A stretch of DNA of 48,926 nucleotides, from the NCBI GenBank assembly GCA_022821445.1, contig JAJEDQ010000084.1, forward strand, positions 1 to 48,926, written 5' to 3'. The translations under genes and the position numbers were made by a program. The DNA comes from Acidimicrobiia bacterium (GTDB taxonomy: Bacteria; Actinomycetota; Acidimicrobiia; Acidimicrobiales; Bin134). The notes under the pieces are model-generated. The model was not told the origin of the DNA and made no database searches. It was given only the letters and a program-made list of their open reading frames with translations. The stretch's first letter is position 1. Every line of letters starts with the position of its first letter. Positions 21,823 through 31,083 of this stretch are shown one piece after another.

Positions 21823-22008
21823 CTATCGGCGGACTCGACGGCGGAAGAGGACGGTGATAACCGCCAGGGTGGTGGCGGCCAGGAAGCGCCGGACGAGCTG
21901 TCGGCGCCGGTCGTACTGGTCGAGCCGGGCCATGACCTTCCACACCAGGGTGGGGGGCGCCTCGGCTGGGGGACGGTGGTCGAATGGCCGGGTGGCGTCA
22001 TTGATCAC
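21823..22008 (-). CDS. Small putative membrane protein overlapping the sigma factor gene
   Basis: A 61-residue reading frame from GTG 22008, overlapping the sigma-factor 3' end by 11 bases. It has a charged N-terminal half (LVWKVMARLDQYDRRRQLVR), one short hydrophobic helix (FLAATTLAVITVLF) and an Arg-rich tail, so probably one membrane segment with a basic cytoplasmic end. GC-rich third positions favour this frame over the overlapping ATGA frame. No family recognised. Its place directly after an ECF sigma gene is where anti-sigma partners often lie, but it shows no zinc-binding anti-sigma motif. Confidence 0.4.
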   Translation of the reverse strand: MINDATRPFDHRPPAEAPPTLVWKVMARLDQYDRRRQLVRRFLAATTLAVITVLFRRRVRR

Positions 22009-22597
22009 GAGGCCGCCTCGTCTTGTTGTCCGGGTCCGGGAGCGCGGCTTGATCGGCTTGGTCGGCGCCAAACTCAGCTGTGCGTTGCAGCACGGTGCGA
22101 AGCCGCTGACGGGCCCGATGGAGCCGGACCTTGGCCGCAGAGGTGGTGATGCCCAACTCGGCGGCGATCTCACTGTGAGAGAGGTCGTGCAGATCACGCA
22201 GCACCACCACCTGGCGCAACCGCTCGGGCAGCGCCCGTATCGCTCGGTCGATGTGGTGGCGCAGGACGGCGGCCTCGGCTCGCAGGCTCGGGTCCTGCTC
22301 GGGCCGCAGATCGACTATGGGGACGTCGTCGCTCAGTTCCTCGGTGCGTTGGCGGGTTCGGCGGCTCAAATGGGTGGACGCGCAGTTGCTGGTGATTCGG
22401 TACATCCAGGTGGAGAAACTGGAGTCGCCCCGAAAGCGGCGAATCGCCCGGTAGGCCCGGACATAGGCGTCTTGCACCACGTCAGCAGCGTCGTCTCGAT
22501 TGCCGGTGAGCCGATAAGCCAAGGCGTAGATGGCTCGGTAGGTGGCCCGGACCAGCTCGTTGAACGCGTCGCGGTCGCCGCGGCGGGCGGCTTCCAC
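21998..22597 (-). CDS. ECF-type RNA polymerase sigma factor
   Basis: Group 4 sigma factor, 199 residues. Region 2 contains YALAYRLTGNRDDAADVVQD, AYRAIRRFRGDSSFSTWMYR and ITSN. Region 4 contains LPERLRQVVVLRDLHDLSHS followed by the helix-turn-helix EIAAELGITTSAAKVRLHRA. The assigned start is GTG 22597; five sigma-like codons (DDAEL) lie just upstream without a usable ATG, so the true N-terminus may be slightly longer. No classical anti-sigma gene follows, only a tiny putative membrane protein. Confidence 0.85.
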   Translation of the reverse strand: MEAARRGDRDAFNELVRATYRAIYALAYRLTGNRDDAADVVQDAYVRAYRAIRRFRGDSSFSTWMYRITSNCASTHLSRRTRQRTEELSDDVPIVDLRPEQDPSLRAEAAVLRHHIDRAIRALPERLRQVVVLRDLHDLSHSEIAAELGITTSAAKVRLHRARQRLRTVLQRTAEFGADQADQAALPDPDNKTRRPRDQ

Positions 22598-22686
22598 CAG
22601 TTCGGCGTCGTCGGGGACATGCTCGCGAGATGCTGCGGGTTCGATAGAGCCACCCTATCGCCGGCCCGCAGCGGGGCGAAAGGGTG

Positions 22687-22715
22687 GGTGGTAGCGGCGG
22701 CCAGACTCGAACTGG
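22687..22715. repeat. Distal copy of tRNA-Met 3' end (att-like direct repeat)
   Basis: 29 bases identical to 24722-24750, i.e. the encoded CCA, the acceptor 3' strand and most of the T-arm of tRNA-Met plus two flanking bases. Beyond 22715 the similarity stops abruptly and no tRNA remains. This is the pattern left by site-specific integration into a tRNA 3' end. Confidence 0.8.
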
Positions 22716-22791
22716 GCCTTTCAGAGAGTGTGAGGCATGGGAGCGATGGAGGGATCTATCGAGTCAAGGTCTCGGACAATTGAGGGCATAC

Positions 22792-24558
22792 TCACGCGTT
22801 GTCGACGGGTGCGTCAGGATCGCTTAGTCGCCACTGATTGTGGCGGCTGCGCCGCTTCTCGCTAGTTGCCTCGACTTCTCCGCCTTCTTCCATTAGGTGG
22901 AGCCATCGGAGTACACCTTGGCTTGTCATCTGGAGTTCCTCAGCGAGATGCCGAGCTGGCTGTGGGCCCGACTCAAGTATGCCTTTGATCTGGGCTCGTC
23001 GGTCTCGGCGAGGTTGCGGTGGTTTTCCATTGAGGTCCAGCCGCGCTTGAATCTCTGAGTTGTCCGTACCGAGGAGCATCCAGACTGCCCATCGTTTGTC
23101 GCTGGTCTTTTCGATGAGGTTCTCTCCAGCGAGGCCGGTCAATTCGCGAGTTGCCGTTAACGGATCACACCCAGTTAACGATCGATACTGCTGATTCGTG
23201 ATTTTCTGGTTCCTGCGTAAGAAGGCAAGAGCCAGTCGTTGTCGATCGTTGAACTGCGCGGTATCAATTGTCGACAGCCACGCTACCGCTTCGTCATCAA
23301 GCAGTCCGTGGTTCTTGATTACCATCCGAAACTCGCGTACGGCATCGAAGATCTGTGGTGGTTCCATCCCAGCATCGCGAAGTGCCGCGGCCGTAGCCAA
23401 CAATCCAGATCCGCGGTTCTCACAGACTGTCCGCCCGGTTGGCTCGACCTCGACGTCTTCTAGGAGCTTGGCCAAACGTGCGTTTCTTGACGAAGAGACC
23501 GACTCGGTAAAGAGATCCTCGCGCGAGACGGGTCCGTGCAAGCCTCCAGGGCTGGAGACTTCGAGTCTGTCAGGGTAGAGGGCGACTCGGACTTGGGTAC
23601 CGTGAGCGAGAGAGTGGTAGTCCCGATGCATCAGGGCATTAGCAACAAGCTCGCGGACAGCCTCCTCCGGGTACTCCCACCGATCCTCGCGACCGAGTCC
23701 GACCACGATTGACCGGCGCTTCATATTTCGTCGGAGTGCAGTGAGTGACTCCGCAACCATGCGGGGGATTGGCCCATCGATCGACTGATTGTCGAGAAAC
23801 CGCGTTCCATCGTCGAGTGGTTCTCCTGATGGCGTCGGCAAGGCGACGAAGGTGATGTCGAGTTGGGGAAAGAATTGCTGGGGAAAACGCCCGAGCGCCA
23901 GCAGTCCGGCAAGTGTCACTCCCCGTTCGTCTCCGCGTTTGACTATTACCCCCATCATGCTGAGTATCTCTTCGTCATTCGCCTGAGCGAAAACCTGGCC
24001 GCGTGTTGACCGTAGGCGATGTAGGAACCTGTTGATGAGGTCCGAGTCGAGATCGTCAACGGTCGCCCCCTCGACGATTGCTCCATCGTCGTCGGGCTGC
24101 CCTCTAGACGACTTGAGAATGTGGACTTCATAAGTTGAGAGGTTGCGGTCACCGTCGAACGTCCTGACGTAGGAACCGCGTTCGATCCCACGGGCCTTCA
24201 CGAAGCACGGCTTCCGCGTGGATGAGAGTTCGTCGATGGCTGCCGCCATGATGGCTTTTCCGTCAACTTCGACGATGTCGACTTCTGGCCGGATTGGCGG
24301 GTCTAGTTGGTCTGAGCACGCTGACGCGAAGTCAGTAGCTAGCTTTGCGGCGTCAACGTCTAGAGCGGCGAATTGGGTGCTTTCGTCCAAGCCTAGGATG
24401 ATCAGTCCACCATCGGTATTCGCAAATGCTGAGACGGTTTCGATGATCGACGTCGGCAGACCACCGGCTGCCGCCTTTGCCTCGATCGTGGCTAGGTCAG
24501 TCTTGGCTGCACGGAGTTTGGGCAGCGCTTCGTTGACGCTGGTTGCAATATCAGGCAA
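22792..24558 (-). CDS. AlbA_2 (Schlafen-like) / HATPase / winged-helix protein, island-borne
   Basis: A 588-residue protein of the AlbA_2-HATPase_c_4 type, often annotated as an ATP-binding transcriptional regulator. AlbA_2 domain about 17-145 (core TVSAFANTDGGLIILGLDE at 41-59). GHKL-type ATPase about 296-395, with N-box ELVANALMHRDY, SSPGGL and NRGSGLL. Two winged-helix segments at about 445-485 and 520-570. The likely start is TTG 24558, with AGAGGAG six bases upstream; the frame stays open to an alternative TTG at 24597 that would consume the repeat array. It is the sole gene of the tRNA-Met island. DNA target and role (regulation or defence) are unknown. Confidence 0.7.
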   Translation of the reverse strand: MPDIATSVNEALPKLRAAKTDLATIEAKAAAGGLPTSIIETVSAFANTDGGLIILGLDESTQFAALDVDAAKLATDFASACSDQLDPPIRPEVDIVEVDGKAIMAAAIDELSSTRKPCFVKARGIERGSYVRTFDGDRNLSTYEVHILKSSRGQPDDDGAIVEGATVDDLDSDLINRFLHRLRSTRGQVFAQANDEEILSMMGVIVKRGDERGVTLAGLLALGRFPQQFFPQLDITFVALPTPSGEPLDDGTRFLDNQSIDGPIPRMVAESLTALRRNMKRRSIVVGLGREDRWEYPEEAVRELVANALMHRDYHSLAHGTQVRVALYPDRLEVSSPGGLHGPVSREDLFTESVSSSRNARLAKLLEDVEVEPTGRTVCENRGSGLLATAAALRDAGMEPPQIFDAVREFRMVIKNHGLLDDEAVAWLSTIDTAQFNDRQRLALAFLRRNQKITNQQYRSLTGCDPLTATRELTGLAGENLIEKTSDKRWAVWMLLGTDNSEIQARLDLNGKPPQPRRDRRAQIKGILESGPQPARHLAEELQMTSQGVLRWLHLMEEGGEVEATSEKRRSRHNQWRLSDPDAPVDNA

Positions 24559-24567
24559 GTCTGCTCC

Positions 24568-24640
24568 TCTTCCAACTTGTTGGATCTTATCTTCCAACTT
24601 GCTAGATCGCGTCTTTTAACTTGTATGTGCAACTCGCTAG
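24568..24640. promoter_or_regulatory. 22-bp-period palindromic operator array upstream of the island gene
   Basis: AACTTG recurs at 24574, 24596 and 24618 (exact 22-bp steps), with a variant AACTCG at 24631. The copy nearest the gene is a perfect palindrome TCCAACTTGTTGGA (24571-24584). The next, TCCAACTTGCTAGA (24593-24606), is partly decayed, and the third more so. The array ends ten bases before the TTG start, covering the promoter and Shine-Dalgarno flank. Probable autoregulatory sites of the AlbA_2 protein. Confidence 0.55.
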
Positions 24641-24723
24641 TGGCGATGGGAGTTACTGTCGAGACCCACGGACAACCCAAGACCAAAAAATCGTGACAAA
24701 CCCGACAAATGCCGAAGACGTGG

Positions 24724-24800
24724 TGGTAGCGGCGGCCAGACTCGAACTGGCGACCTCTCGATTATGAGTCGAGCGCTCTTACCGACTGAGCTACGCCGCC
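24724..24800 (-). tRNA. tRNA-Met (CAT anticodon)
   Basis: A 77-nt gene including an encoded CCA. Acceptor GGCGGCG pairs with CGCCGCT (one G-U), D-arm TAGCTCAGTCGGTAAGAGC, anticodon loop CTCATAA. Elongator methionine is most likely; a tRNA-Ile with modified CAT is the alternative. Its 3' end is the att-like repeat. Confidence 0.9.
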
Positions 24801-24806
24801 CCGGAA

Positions 24807-25523: not shown

Positions 25524-25557
25524 CCTAGCCAGATTTCGCTACTGGTCCCGTATCCGG

Positions 25558-26805
25558 TCAGGCAGCGATCAGTTGTTCAGCGGGCGGCGGGTGGGTTGTG
25601 GGGCTGGGTCGTGCTGGGGGTTTGAGGCGATACCGGCCGTTGACGGTGTCGTGTTCGATGGTGTGGTGGTGTTTGTGGACTTTGGTGTGGCAGCGGGGGC
25701 ACAAAAGCACCAGGTTGGTGATGTCGGTGGGTCCGTTTTGGTCCCATGGTTGGATGTGGTGGGCATCGCACACCTGAGGCCTGAGACCACAGCCCACACA
25801 GCCCCCGTCTCTCTTGTACAGGGCCAGTTTTTGGGCTTTGGTCGGCGCTCTTTGGGCCTTGCCCACATAGAGGGGCTGCCCGTCGGCGGCGAAGATCATC
25901 GGCACGATGTCAGCGTCGCAGGCGAGGTGGCGGAGCTCGTCGAGGTCGATCGGCGTGCCGTCGATGAGCCCGGCATTCTTCAGCCGGCCCTCGATGGCGT
26001 CGTAGTCGGCGGATACCACCAGCACTGTCTTTTGCGGGCGTATGCCGCAATCCGGAACGCCCGCAAAGGACGTGTCCGCGTCACCCGGCACGATGGCGGG
26101 CTGTTGGATGACGAGCGCGACGAGTGCGTCGGCGTTGCGCTGCTCGAAGGTGCGAATGGGGTCGAAAGCGATGTCGTCGACGAGCATCTTGTCGCTCATG
26201 GCGCCAAGAGCGATCTTGAACCGCTCGCCGGACACCGGGTCGAGCTCGCCGTGTAACACGACCATGCCGCCGGTGCCGTCGAACACTTTGAGGGATCGGC
26301 GGGCCCGCTGGCGCTCGGCTCGGCCCATGCCGTTGTTGGCGCGGCGCTGGTCCTCGCGGGCCGCGACGGTCTTTTTGAAGTCGTCGTGGCCCTGCCAGGT
26401 GCCCAACTCCAACAACTCTTGTTGGTCCCGTTCGCTCATCGGCGCCCGCTTGTGCGACTCGGACACCATCCCGGCCTGATCCGCCGAAATGCGACCATCC
26501 TGGACCGCGCCAAGAATCTGGGGCATGGCCGCGACACCCCGGGCCGTCCTGGCCAGTTGGCGGGCCCGGTAGGCGCTGATGCCGAATTGGTGACACACCG
26601 TGGCAGCCGCACCCGGCCCCTCCAGCTCGCCGTATCGGACAACCAGCCCCACCAGATACCCCTCAGCCCGGCGGCGCAGCAGATCAACCTGTCCCATCAA
26701 CCCCAACAGCTCCGAAGCGCCCGCCTCAGAGAAATCCGGGAACCCGAAACCCGCACCAACAACGGCGGAAGAGCCGTCTGTACTGGGATTCAACGTAAAT
26801 TCCAT
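25558..26805 (-). CDS. DUF222/13E12-repeat family protein with C-terminal HNH nuclease domain
   Basis: A 415-residue protein with the actinobacterial DUF222 domain (about 1-290) followed by an HNH endonuclease domain. The HNH part shows CVGC, DAHHIQPW, N in DITNLVLLCPRCH and HKHHH, i.e. a zinc-ribbon HNH core. Such genes are multicopy in many actinobacteria and are often tied to mobile DNA, but their function is not settled. The start ATG 26805 is set by domain start and by a -10 element at leaderless distance; the frame stays open to 26877. It is convergent with the acetyltransferase. Confidence 0.82.
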   Translation of the reverse strand: MEFTLNPSTDGSSAVVGAGFGFPDFSEAGASELLGLMGQVDLLRRRAEGYLVGLVVRYGELEGPGAAATVCHQFGISAYRARQLARTARGVAAMPQILGAVQDGRISADQAGMVSESHKRAPMSERDQQELLELGTWQGHDDFKKTVAAREDQRRANNGMGRAERQRARRSLKVFDGTGGMVVLHGELDPVSGERFKIALGAMSDKMLVDDIAFDPIRTFEQRNADALVALVIQQPAIVPGDADTSFAGVPDCGIRPQKTVLVVSADYDAIEGRLKNAGLIDGTPIDLDELRHLACDADIVPMIFAADGQPLYVGKAQRAPTKAQKLALYKRDGGCVGCGLRPQVCDAHHIQPWDQNGPTDITNLVLLCPRCHTKVHKHHHTIEHDTVNGRYRLKPPARPSPTTHPPPAEQLIAA

Positions 26806-26812
26806 AAATGAA

Positions 26813-26818
26813 ATTATA
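26813..26818 (-). promoter_or_regulatory. -10 element TATAAT, leaderless start of the HNH gene
   Basis: A perfect TATAAT on the minus strand ends seven bases before ATG 26805, with no Shine-Dalgarno, so the transcript should begin at or next to the ATG. The interval 26819-27034 between this gene and the next start holds no other recognisable feature. Confidence 0.55.
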
Positions 26819-27034
26819 CCGACCTCAGTGACACAATCCCCCTTGAAAATGATCAGAAAATGCAAAAAAGTAGACACGCGCAGCCATTGGGGGTTGGCGG
26901 TGTGAACCGCCCTGGTGTGGCCGGAGGGTCTGGATGTCCCCTTGTCCTGATCGCTGTAGGTGCTTCCGGAGGCCCCGGCTAGTTGCTAGCACTTAGTTAC
27001 ATTGAAGTGTTGCTGAGCGGCGTAGTCTCAAGGC

Positions 27035-27613
27035 ATGGATCCGGCTCTTCAGGAACTAAGCGCCTTGTTATCAGAGGCTGCTGTCCGAAACGCCGCTGCC
27101 GCTGTGGCGGATCGGATTTCTGCGGCGAAGGCGCGGAAGAGGGACAAGGAGACGATCGCGGCCCTAGAGGACATCGTCAATGAGCTGCTTGCTGACAAGT
27201 CCGAATTGGTACGGATCGCTCAGGCTTTCGACGACGAGCTGGTTGCGCAACGGCTGTCAGTGGAAGACGTTAACTTCATCACCGAGAACCTGTTGCCCTT
27301 GATCCGGCAACTGATGGAGGCGTCGGGACAGGAAGTGCTTGAGCCACAGGTGCTTGATGCGCTCGAGTCGATTCTTGCGGCCGAGACATTGACGATCATG
27401 CAGCTCATCGGCTTCAACTATCGACAGGCGATTGGTAAGCCCCTGACTGAGCTCGCAGCAGCGGCGATTGCATCGCGAAAGCCTCACGATCAGACGCAGA
27501 GCCTGGATCTTCAACAAGCACTGGTTGAAAGGGATATCGCCCTGGCTGAACTCGCAGGCGACCCCGATGCATGGGCTCGATTCGTGGAACTCAGACCCAG
27601 AGGCACCCGTTAG
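27035..27613 (+). CDS. Hypothetical protein, helical, upstream of tRNA-Tyr (convergent)
   Basis: A 192-residue protein I do not recognise. It is almost entirely helix-forming, rich in Ala, Glu and Leu, with possible coiled-coil stretches at about 35-70 and 100-135, no membrane segment, no cysteines and no obvious catalytic motif. It has an ATG start with weak AAGG upstream. It stands alone between the HNH gene and tRNA-Tyr in a region rich in accessory genes, so it may be acquired. Confidence 0.6.
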   Translation: MDPALQELSALLSEAAVRNAAAAVADRISAAKARKRDKETIAALEDIVNELLADKSELVRIAQAFDDELVAQRLSVEDVNFITENLLPLIRQLMEASGQEVLEPQVLDALESILAAETLTIMQLIGFNYRQAIGKPLTELAAAAIASRKPHDQTQSLDLQQALVERDIALAELAGDPDAWARFVELRPRGTR

Positions 27614-27637
27614 CGGTCTGGGTATTTTTCTGCTGTG

Positions 27638-29340: not shown

Positions 29341-31083
29341 TCACCGGGCGGGCAGGTAGTGGAATCCTCTTCCCCGGCCTGCGTCTGAGCTCGGCACAAG
29401 CCAGCCTTGCTGGGCCATTTCCTTCAATCGGTTTGTGGCGGTGGCGGTTGATACTCCGGCCAACTCACGATACTCGCCAGAGGAGATCCGCCCCCGCTCG
29501 CGGGACCAGGCCAGCACCCACTCACCGGACTCGGCACCCGGCTGCAGGCCGAGGGCTGCTTTTGTCTCCGGGCTGAGCTGCCAGGCACCAGGAGTGTCAT
29601 GGGGCACGGCGATGGGCGACAGCAAGGGTGCCCCCGACGTTGCCGGCCTGTATTCGGCCACCCTTCGCAGTGCTGATTCGGTGTCTCCCTGAGAGCGTTG
29701 AAGCAGCGGAGCACAGGATTCACTGGTGAGGAAGGGCGATTGCGGCTGCGCCGCCCGCCAGACGAGCAGAGCGGCATCCACGTCGTCGCGGCCACGCGGG
29801 GGCTCCAAGTCGGCGAACAGCCGGTACCAGTCTTCATTCACCGGTTGCCCGTAGAGGTCTATGCGGACGGCCGGGTCGGATAGGGCTGTGATGGCAGGCG
29901 GCCGACTGCCGATGCGGACCATCTCGGCGAACATCATGTCCACACCGACACCCTCCTGCTCCACGAGGCCGATCAGCCGCAGTGCGTTCATGAGGGTTCG
30001 GTAGCGCGGCACGGAGTGGTGGGTAATGATGTTGTTCTCGGTGACGCCACCGATAAGCCCGCCGGGCGAGGTGACGCGGAGGTGATTTCCGATGTGCTCC
30101 ACTACCGTGGGTCCCGGCAAGCTCCACTCCCGGTGGCAGACCGCATTCAAAAGCGCCTCACGCAGCGACCGCCGCGGGATAGCCCACACCTTGTGGACCC
30201 GAAGCCCTATGGTGATCTCCGTCACCAAATTGTGATCATTGGCCCGTGCTTCGACTGCCAGAACCTCTTCCAGCAGCGAGCGGCCACCTTCCATGATCCG
30301 CACGATGGAAGGCCCACCGGGAACGTGCCGGTACGAGTAGTCGACGGCCGGCTGCTGACGCACCGCGAGAAGCATCTCGCCGGCCTTGTTCAGATGCTCG
30401 CCGTCGTCTGCAACCAGCCCGAGCCTGCCCAGCAGGTCGCGTATTGGGAGCGCTGCTCTAGGAGAACCGTCGTCTGACATTCGGCCTCGAAGCGTCTCTA
30501 TCGCAGACGGTGCGATCGAGCTGATAGGGGTGTGCGACGGCATGTTCGAAACGTCAGCCGCAAGGTTGGCGAACAGCGCTCCCATGAGTTCGGTCCTCGT
30601 GGCCGGTACGCATCTGGCATCTACCCGGTGTTGGTATTTTCCCTGGTGCGGCACCGGCTCAAGGGCTTGGGGCACTTCGATGATCAGAATCTCTGTTCCG
30701 TTGGCAGTGACTCGGTCGACCTGCACCGCCAGCTTTCGATCGGTCAGGTCGTAGATACGACTTCTCAGCCACTGCGGATCGGTTTCCGCTCCGATGATCC
30801 GGCCAGTCTTGTCGTCCACGCCAACTACCAGAGCTCCCCCTCCAGCCGAGTTGGCCATGCAGGCCGCCGCTTCGGCCAGCTTCTCTGCCGCCTCGTTGTT
30901 GTGCGGAGAGCCGGGCATGATCGATCCGTCGCTGGCTCGGCGGCCGGCCTCCTCTTTGATGTCGACGACGGCTGACTCCAATTCGTCCGCAGAGGCGCCG
31001 CCTTCGCTCAAGGCCCGCAGAACGCGCTCAACCTCTTCGCGGCGTTGTGGTTGTGGCAAGTAAGTGAAGGTTGCGCGGCTCAC
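29341..31083 (-). CDS. AlbA_2 (Schlafen-like) / HATPase / winged-helix protein, second copy
   Basis: A 580-residue paralogue-class protein of the island gene with the same architecture. AlbA_2 about 35-165 (AACMANSAGGGALVVGVDD near 75-92). GHKL ATPase about 305-395 (SLREALLNAVCHREW, VTSPGGLIGGVTENN, EQEGVGVDMMF). C-terminal winged helix about 515-565 (RISSGEYRELAGVSTATA). Sequence identity with the first copy looks low, so they are distinct family members and not recent duplicates. GTG 31083 has AGGGGA seven bases upstream, directly abutting the first inverted repeat of a 51-bp array. Likely autoregulated; target unknown. Confidence 0.72.
   Translation of the reverse strand: MSRATFTYLPQPQRREEVERVLRALSEGGASADELESAVVDIKEEAGRRASDGSIMPGSPHNNEAAEKLAEAAACMANSAGGGALVVGVDDKTGRIIGAETDPQWLRSRIYDLTDRKLAVQVDRVTANGTEILIIEVPQALEPVPHQGKYQHRVDARCVPATRTELMGALFANLAADVSNMPSHTPISSIAPSAIETLRGRMSDDGSPRAALPIRDLLGRLGLVADDGEHLNKAGEMLLAVRQQPAVDYSYRHVPGGPSIVRIMEGGRSLLEEVLAVEARANDHNLVTEITIGLRVHKVWAIPRRSLREALLNAVCHREWSLPGPTVVEHIGNHLRVTSPGGLIGGVTENNIITHHSVPRYRTLMNALRLIGLVEQEGVGVDMMFAEMVRIGSRPPAITALSDPAVRIDLYGQPVNEDWYRLFADLEPPRGRDDVDAALLVWRAAQPQSPFLTSESCAPLLQRSQGDTESALRRVAEYRPATSGAPLLSPIAVPHDTPGAWQLSPETKAALGLQPGAESGEWVLAWSRERGRISSGEYRELAGVSTATATNRLKEMAQQGWLVPSSDAGRGRGFHYLPAR

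Follow-up and report, generated by a model that had tools for sequence, protein, structure and literature searches.

In the window, the 48,926-nucleotide stretch of Acidimicrobiia DNA analysed here (genome G000), the 3′ end of a tRNA-Met gene occurs twice, and the interval between the two copies holds one gene and no recombinase. The first-pass annotation had read this architecture as site-specific integration at minimal size and had offered three options for its nature: a remnant, an element using a helper integrase, or a small selfish or defence cassette. The locus thus raises the question of whether the interval is a mobile unit at all and, if so, what moves it.

Anatomy of the island and empty sites in the genus

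The repeat (GGTGGTAGCGGCGGCCAGACTCGAACTGG; 29 bp) is exact, as had been claimed, at 22687-22715 and 24722-24750, with a spacing of 2035 bp, and since it is the sole exact same-strand repeat of at least 22 bp within the 48.9-kb window it is not a product of chance. The right copy consists of the last 27 nt of tRNA-Met(CAT) plus 2 nt. At the left copy no tRNA was called; it is a bare 29-bp fragment and not a vestigial duplicated tRNA, the reading that had been named as counting against insertion. When up to three mismatches were allowed, the 26-bp core was found at just the two island copies in the 3.4-Mb assembly, and no third copy was found there. The island has a GC content of 56.8%, lower than in its 2-kb flanks (64.5% and 63.3%) and lower than in any of 470 sliding windows of island size. 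The open reading frames comprise a single long one (22792-24597, minus strand) and two shorter antisense ones of 126 and 133 aa. Pfam matches identified the former as the AlbA_2/HATPase gene described earlier; no recombinase or relaxase domain was matched in the ORF list or in the Pfam scan of the one long ORF, and none of the ORFs in the 2,006-bp island looked like a remnant of another element's gene. The features are as follows:

21998..22686, minus strand: native downstream side, outside the cassette, with an ECF sigma factor gene and the native trailer (Pfam; empty relatives)
22687..22715, no strand: 29-bp copy displaced from the tRNA-Met 3′ end, forming the cassette's outer boundary (exact repeat; identity between G000 and the second carrier genome, G010, rises here)
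22716..24721, no strand: inserted cassette, 2,006 bp, 56.8% GC (absence at 15 of 17 readable loci of the genus; GC content)
22792..24558, minus strand: cargo gene, with SLFN_AlbA_2, HATPase_c_4 and a weak C-terminal winged-helix match (ORF list, Pfam, alignment)
24568..24633, no strand: three tandem 22-bp units (TCTTCCAACTTG... and variants), candidate operator, at the start of the cargo gene
24598..24721, no strand: non-coding, tRNA-proximal cassette end (sequence and comparison with empty sites)
24722..24750, no strand: 29-bp copy within tRNA-Met (27 nt of tRNA plus 2 nt), inner boundary (tRNA call and repeat)
24724..24800, minus strand: tRNA-Met (CAT), intact, the integration target (tRNA call)

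In empty relatives, the equivalent of 21998..22686 directly follows tRNA-Met, and comparison with these sites indicates that 24598..24721 now trails the tRNA in place of the native trailer. Between 22500 and 24950, no promoter-like sites (0.6 in shuffled sequence) and three terminator-like sites (1.6 in shuffled sequence, sd 1.3) were predicted. Four 7-mers are common to both island ends, a number that was reached by 83 of 2000 shuffles, and putative arm-type sites at the ends are thus weakly indicated.

Beyond the GNAT gene on the right, another stretch of 2.1 kb (25524-27636) with a DUF222-HNH gene and a 192-aa ORF extends to tRNA-Tyr. GNAT directly abuts tRNA-Tyr at the loci L018, L022 and L025, and G019 has the stretch too; no repeat of at least 10 bp is shared between the tRNA-Tyr end and the start of the stretch.

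The genus sample comprised 22 genomes including G000, and the tRNA-Met locus was readable in 17 and unreadable in five (G001, G004, G008, G009, G017). At 15 of the 17 readable loci the island is absent and the native flank adjoins the tRNA, the only carriers being G000 and G010. In G019, which is 95% identical to the window across the tRNA-GNAT stretch, the alignment of the 987-bp left flank continues through its final base and there meets the tRNA directly, at the repeat. The empty-site comparison that had been suggested thus demonstrated that the gene is missing from many related genomes, and the proposed integration architecture has its counterpart in exact empty sites. The island is an inserted mobile unit, and its insertion was precise.

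Two empty loci (G014 and G006) have some 70 additional bp next to the tRNA; these were considered as relics of the repeat and rejected, as shuffles scored as well in 129 and 332 of 500 cases, respectively. G016 is diverged.

Movement of the island between species

G010, which belongs to another species, carries the same island at the same base and with both repeats, one of them with a single mismatch. The island differs between the two genomes at 29 positions in 2,006 bp (98.55% identity), with the gene at 98.8%, the right end at 98.4% and the left 76 bp at 93.4%. In contrast, the left flank has 220 differences in 1,504 alignment columns (85.4%; 78.2% in its last 87 bp), and the sequence right of the tRNA has 68 in 735 columns (90.75%). 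The contrast is weaker on the right than on the left, as right-flank windows of 100 bp range from 85% to 97%, reaching 97% within GNAT and falling lower in the last partial window, yet on this side too it is marked (p 2e-13). On the left, identity changes between 22672 and 22757, around the repeat, with a single difference at 22689 within 22673-22756. On the right it changes between 24721 and 24805, an interval that corresponds to the conserved tRNA gene: no differences occur at 24722-24804 (tRNA plus 4 nt), and the tRNA being conserved in itself, the right break cannot be located more finely inside it. As the identity shifts at the left repeat and within the right tRNA, it is the repeat-bounded unit that moved between species, and it did so recently.

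Synonymous divergence follows the same pattern: dS is 0.023 for the cargo gene and 0.637, 0.432, 0.584 and 0.249 for rplK, nusG, the sigma factor gene and GNAT, respectively, where the names rplK and nusG are our own reading. For the cargo gene dN/dS is 0.39, with ten synonymous and 12 non-synonymous codons, seven of the latter within residues 522-594. In a tree of the left flank, G000 groups with G019, G003 and G012, and G010 with G015 and G020; all five of these relatives are empty, and the carriers fall in two supported clades, so that supported branches force two changes of island state. The best topology of the right-flank tree also needs two changes, of which supported branches force only one.

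The island is unlikely to be an assembly chimera, because two assemblies with different flanks agree on both junctions, although one is a metagenome-assembled genome (G010) and the other an assembly of 256 contigs (G000). Homologous recombination or transformation with crossovers in the flanks might also have carried the island from one species to the other. The left- and right-flank trees differ, flanks in the genus seem to recombine, and identity in the right flank climbs to 97% in some windows. However, the low identity of both flanks next to the high identity of the island, significant also on the right, indicates that no long donor flank came along, and the first insertion would still need an explanation. 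We regard this route as improbable.

Source of mobility and similar units at tRNA genes

The anatomy is what tyrosine integrases produce when they recombine an element into the 3′ end of a tRNA gene, and as no integrase was seen in the island, the enzyme would have to come from elsewhere. Recent movement between species together with the lack of a visible mobility enzyme suggests that another element moves the cassette. Among the options raised at first pass, this movement speaks against a dead remnant and for dependence on a helper. We therefore think it probable that the island is a non-autonomous, site-specifically integrating cassette moved by the integrase of another element and close to cis-mobilizable elements (CIMEs). 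The gene and its own upstream region would be carried as a circle, the attP of which matches the 29-bp 3′ end of tRNA-Met. A foreign tyrosine integrase, acting in trans or after tandem accretion, would then recombine the cassette into the tRNA gene, restoring the tRNA and leaving the displaced 29-bp copy 2 kb away. A phage, a conjugative element or transformation may serve as vehicle between species.

No integrase was found beside tRNA-Met in G000 or G010. The two genomes together have 13 Phage_integrase matches, none with tRNA-Met in the flanks examined, which extend up to 1.5 kb; three of these matches, in G000, are located near tRNA-Arg, -Glu and -Lys. Elsewhere in the genus, the tRNA-Met 26-mer occurs in one copy per genome that has it and never as a doublet. 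It has no exact match in viral_contigs, where a search sensitive to close relatives only also confirmed no relatives of the cargo. As no helper was found at tRNA-Met, its existence is what we infer. The cargo has one plasmid match (35%; E up to 1e-60) and four phage matches (25-34%; E up to 1e-20).

CIMEs are defined as decayed ICEs or IMEs with att-like repeats at both ends and no integrase or transfer genes; they lie at the 3′ ends of genes for tRNAs or ribosomal proteins, measure 1.2-13 kb with cargo, and are counted also when solitary (PMC7563491, PMC5704250). The former source states that single CIMEs escape its method and cites 215 CIMEs from a single tRNA-Lys site, either solitary or in accretion (PMC7563491). 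By structure the island corresponds to a CIME on two features: it has attL- and attR-like sites, namely the 29-bp repeats at both ends with exact empty sites, and it lacks genes for integration or transfer, with one long ORF and no recombinase or relaxase match. Its standing alone is not a novelty. It differs from CIMEs in that no vestige of a larger element was seen in it and that it has recently moved between species.

As to an origin from an ICE or IME by deletion, the island could be a decayed remnant of a larger tRNA-Met element, a classical CIME, that was carried passively in or beside a larger element which later left. The described CIMEs, small as they may be and numerous at one tRNA-Lys site (PMC7563491, PMC5704250), would accommodate such a history, as would the tRNA-Leu cases described below, which include integrase remnants and repeated copies. 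Searches for 3′-end doublets revealed no parent element at tRNA-Met. On the other hand, no relic of another element gene was seen in the ORFs of the interval, the assembly has no third core copy, and the unit stands alone in two species. A remnant is thus rather unlikely, though less so than the recombination route considered above.

Units similar to the cassette were sought with a degenerate tRNA-Met 3′-end pattern, which matched in 137 of 397 sampled genomes of the order and twice in four, a count that a mutated displaced copy would escape. Doublets on the same contig were those of G000 and G010 (2035 bp each) and G243 (2228 bp); the fourth, in G089, was discarded as an overlap of two contig ends bearing the same tRNA-Thr/tRNA-Met stretch. 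In G243, a member of another family, an HTH/MT-A70 methylase gene and a BglII-like endonuclease gene lie between two whole tRNA-Met copies, the repeat covering the whole tRNA plus 13 bp (88 bp). In G117, from the same genus, related sequence (80% and 76%) with a like ORF pair accompanies tRNA-Met, of which there is no second copy, and no sequence related to the G243 unit was found in G261, G223 and G076.

The first-pass annotation had further proposed to look for the same gene family between tRNA-derived repeats, and a Nitriliruptoraceae MAG (G401, PWEU01000136.1; listed again as G776) provided one such case, at tRNA-Leu. Here, a 53% AlbA_2 homolog is situated between 60-nt copies of the 3′ part of tRNA-Leu(CAG), 98% alike and 2033 bp apart, and the contig also has a broken Phage_integrase gene beside a third tRNA-Leu copy on the other strand. 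Among 199 genomes around G738, the tRNA-Leu end matched in 109, with four same-strand doublets on one contig: G776 (2033 bp), G784 (2082 bp), G771 (2092 bp) and G449 (about 20.9 kb). The G784 unit contains HTH_17 and Fic genes. The G771 unit, whose site is of the tRNA-Leu(GAG) type, holds a truncated integrase in addition to AbiEii and a small ORF. Integrase remnants occur near two of the three units (AlbA_2, Fic, AbiEii), which have in common a conserved stretch adjoining the repeat; we take part of this stretch to be a terminator-like hairpin. In G738, a stop-disrupted 43% homolog lies between an intact tRNA-Leu and a damaged copy.

Several genomes of family f75 (L102, L103, L104, L140, L144) have several matches to the tRNA-Leu 3′ end, flanked by a conserved stretch, and in some a motif ending in CTCTGAC follows about 45 bp beyond the repeat. 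These are likely the arms of an integrating-element family.

Homologs of the cargo were checked for flanking tRNA ends and repeats at 22 entries (21 loci, as L003 and L010 are one and the same), using 72 tRNA sequences of nine amino-acid types and flanks that at some loci measured just 300-450 bp; the own-genome matches L007 and L008 and the window's own second copy were left out. The end of the same tRNA was present on both sides only in the window, its G010 copy and L090; L100 has one tRNA end and one damaged, and at the remaining entries none was found. Most homologs checked are therefore not tRNA-bounded. In the phylum sample, a match at E up to 1e-120 was obtained in three of 396 genomes, the own included, and the six named protein relatives include the G010 copy and the G401 homolog. 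A 59% homolog in G001 (locus L137, 3876-6330, G001:C232) lies with a pair of genes, VapBC-like by our own reading, between non-tRNA repeat copies 2381 bp apart; the repeat, around GGAGGGAACTGTCACACC, was found in only two copies in that genome.

The G001 arrangement and the 88-bp repeat of G243, which spans the whole tRNA, would suit insertion with a long target duplication, as proposed for restriction-modification genes, in place of att-site recombination. Such insertions reportedly consist of one or two conflict genes between direct repeats with no transposase, and are said not to be tied to tRNA genes or to one base position. G000 and G010, in contrast, share the same insertion base with left flanks from different clades, and the repeats of the window and of the tRNA-Leu units begin within the tRNA and extend to its 3′ end, as they do with tyrosine integrases. 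The tRNA-Leu units moreover share their conserved end by the repeat, two with integrase remnants, and we consider target duplication very improbable. It is harder still to believe that the AlbA_2/HATPase protein drives its own site-specific movement as a one-gene autonomous element: the gene is indeed the only cargo between 3′-end copies of tRNA-Met in one case and of tRNA-Leu in another, but cassettes bounded alike hold unrelated cargo (restriction-modification, Fic, AbiEii), most homologs checked lack tRNA repeats, and no recombinase domain was matched.

In addition to the preferred reading of a helper-dependent cassette at this one locus, we tentatively raise the possibility, in our view doubtful, of an unrecognised class of non-autonomous 'tRNA cassettes' of about 2 kb, with one or two conflict genes and an att end copied from a tRNA 3′ end, which unrelated elements that target the same tRNA would carry from species to species by means of their integrases. 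If so, they would parallel MITEs, which use transposases, and integron cassettes, which use integron integrases. The spacings of 2033, 2035, 2082, 2092 and 2228 bp at tRNA-Met and tRNA-Leu in actinobacterial lineages would then represent one size class, which is only suggestive, as contig ends favour short spacings.

The cargo protein and comparison with known systems

The start of the cargo gene was placed by eye at the TTG at 24558, which AGAGGAG precedes by 5 nt, and not at 24597, where the mechanical ORF begins. SLFN_AlbA_2 (PF04326) scored 50.7 bits against a gathering cut-off of 25.3, HATPase_c_4 was likewise above its Pfam cut-off and HTH_29 below. D21, E26 and E59, which by our own reading may correspond to the acidic triad of Schlafen nucleases, are invariant in nine of nine aligned rows, two of these being the near-identical window and G010 copies. 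Further matches were to PHROG 12156, a phage family labelled DNA helicase (1.6e-54), and, by phmmer, to the solved RecG-related protein 2kyy (1.9e-14), and to Schlafens only at E 0.4-0.9. PADLOC gave partial matches, the best to pAgo and Aga_SIR2 models, and NCBIfam none over cut-offs. The AlphaFold model is poor (mean pLDDT 52.1, pTM 0.31). The cargo shares both domains with the Schlafen-related AlbA_2/HATPase_c_4 proteins, presumably COG2865, but has an additional C-terminal winged-helix-like region; no tested function for it was met in the literature covered. The cargo is probably a conflict or defence protein that combines an AlbA_2 (Schlafen-type) domain with a GHKL-type ATPase module, and the defence option of the first-pass annotation would thus follow from the domains only.

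Two of the 22-bp units at the gene start came from repeat detection, and the third was read off the sequence. Similar stretches were seen by eye ahead of the homologs L086 and L089, the exact 9-mer CAAGTTGGA only in L086. Together, these repeats suggest autoregulation of the cargo gene, and its winged helix may bind them at its own promoter.

A second AlbA_2/HATPase_c_4 gene of the window (29341-31083, minus strand), with a sub-threshold DIP2311-like C-terminus, is distant from the cargo gene. A 52% paralog elsewhere in the genome (L009; G000:C79:3859-5721) has no repeats and neighbours genes that we name cysteine desulfurase- and mnmA-like; the G001 homolog likewise neighbours a desulfurase-like gene.

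Like tRNA-integrating islands, the cassette has a repeat that covers the tRNA 3′ end and leaves the tRNA intact; it encodes no integrase of its own. The tRNA/tmRNA islands and phage satellites such as PICMI resemble it in their integration, with direct repeats at the tmRNA end in the former (PMC12595487) and next to fis in the latter; they carry defence cargo and depend on helpers, as may the cassette. These elements, however, encode their own integrase and are larger, PICMI115 having six annotated genes (PMC10803314, PMC12595487). Integron cassettes and CALIN arrays (PMC11389934) and Acinetobacter pdif modules are also site-bounded units with a recombinase encoded elsewhere, but their sites are attC or dif, unlike the tRNA 3′ ends used here.

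Because CIMEs are already known as small and solitary at tRNA genes, integrase-less units at such genes are not new in themselves. New are the recent movement between species, seen from exact sites and dS, the Schlafen-related single-gene cargo and the recurrence with other conflict genes. No single-gene, integrase-less cassettes at tRNA-Met or tRNA-Leu were met in the literature covered, which, with subscription journals and most preprints outside its scope, is weak evidence of absence. Integrase-less units are easily missed by island finders that start from an integrase, and the empty and filled sites in this genus provide a clean natural test. Were a single gene with a 29-bp tRNA end enough to pass between species, tRNA genes would be landing pads for single conflict genes, which would offer a simple route for the spread of solitary defence genes.
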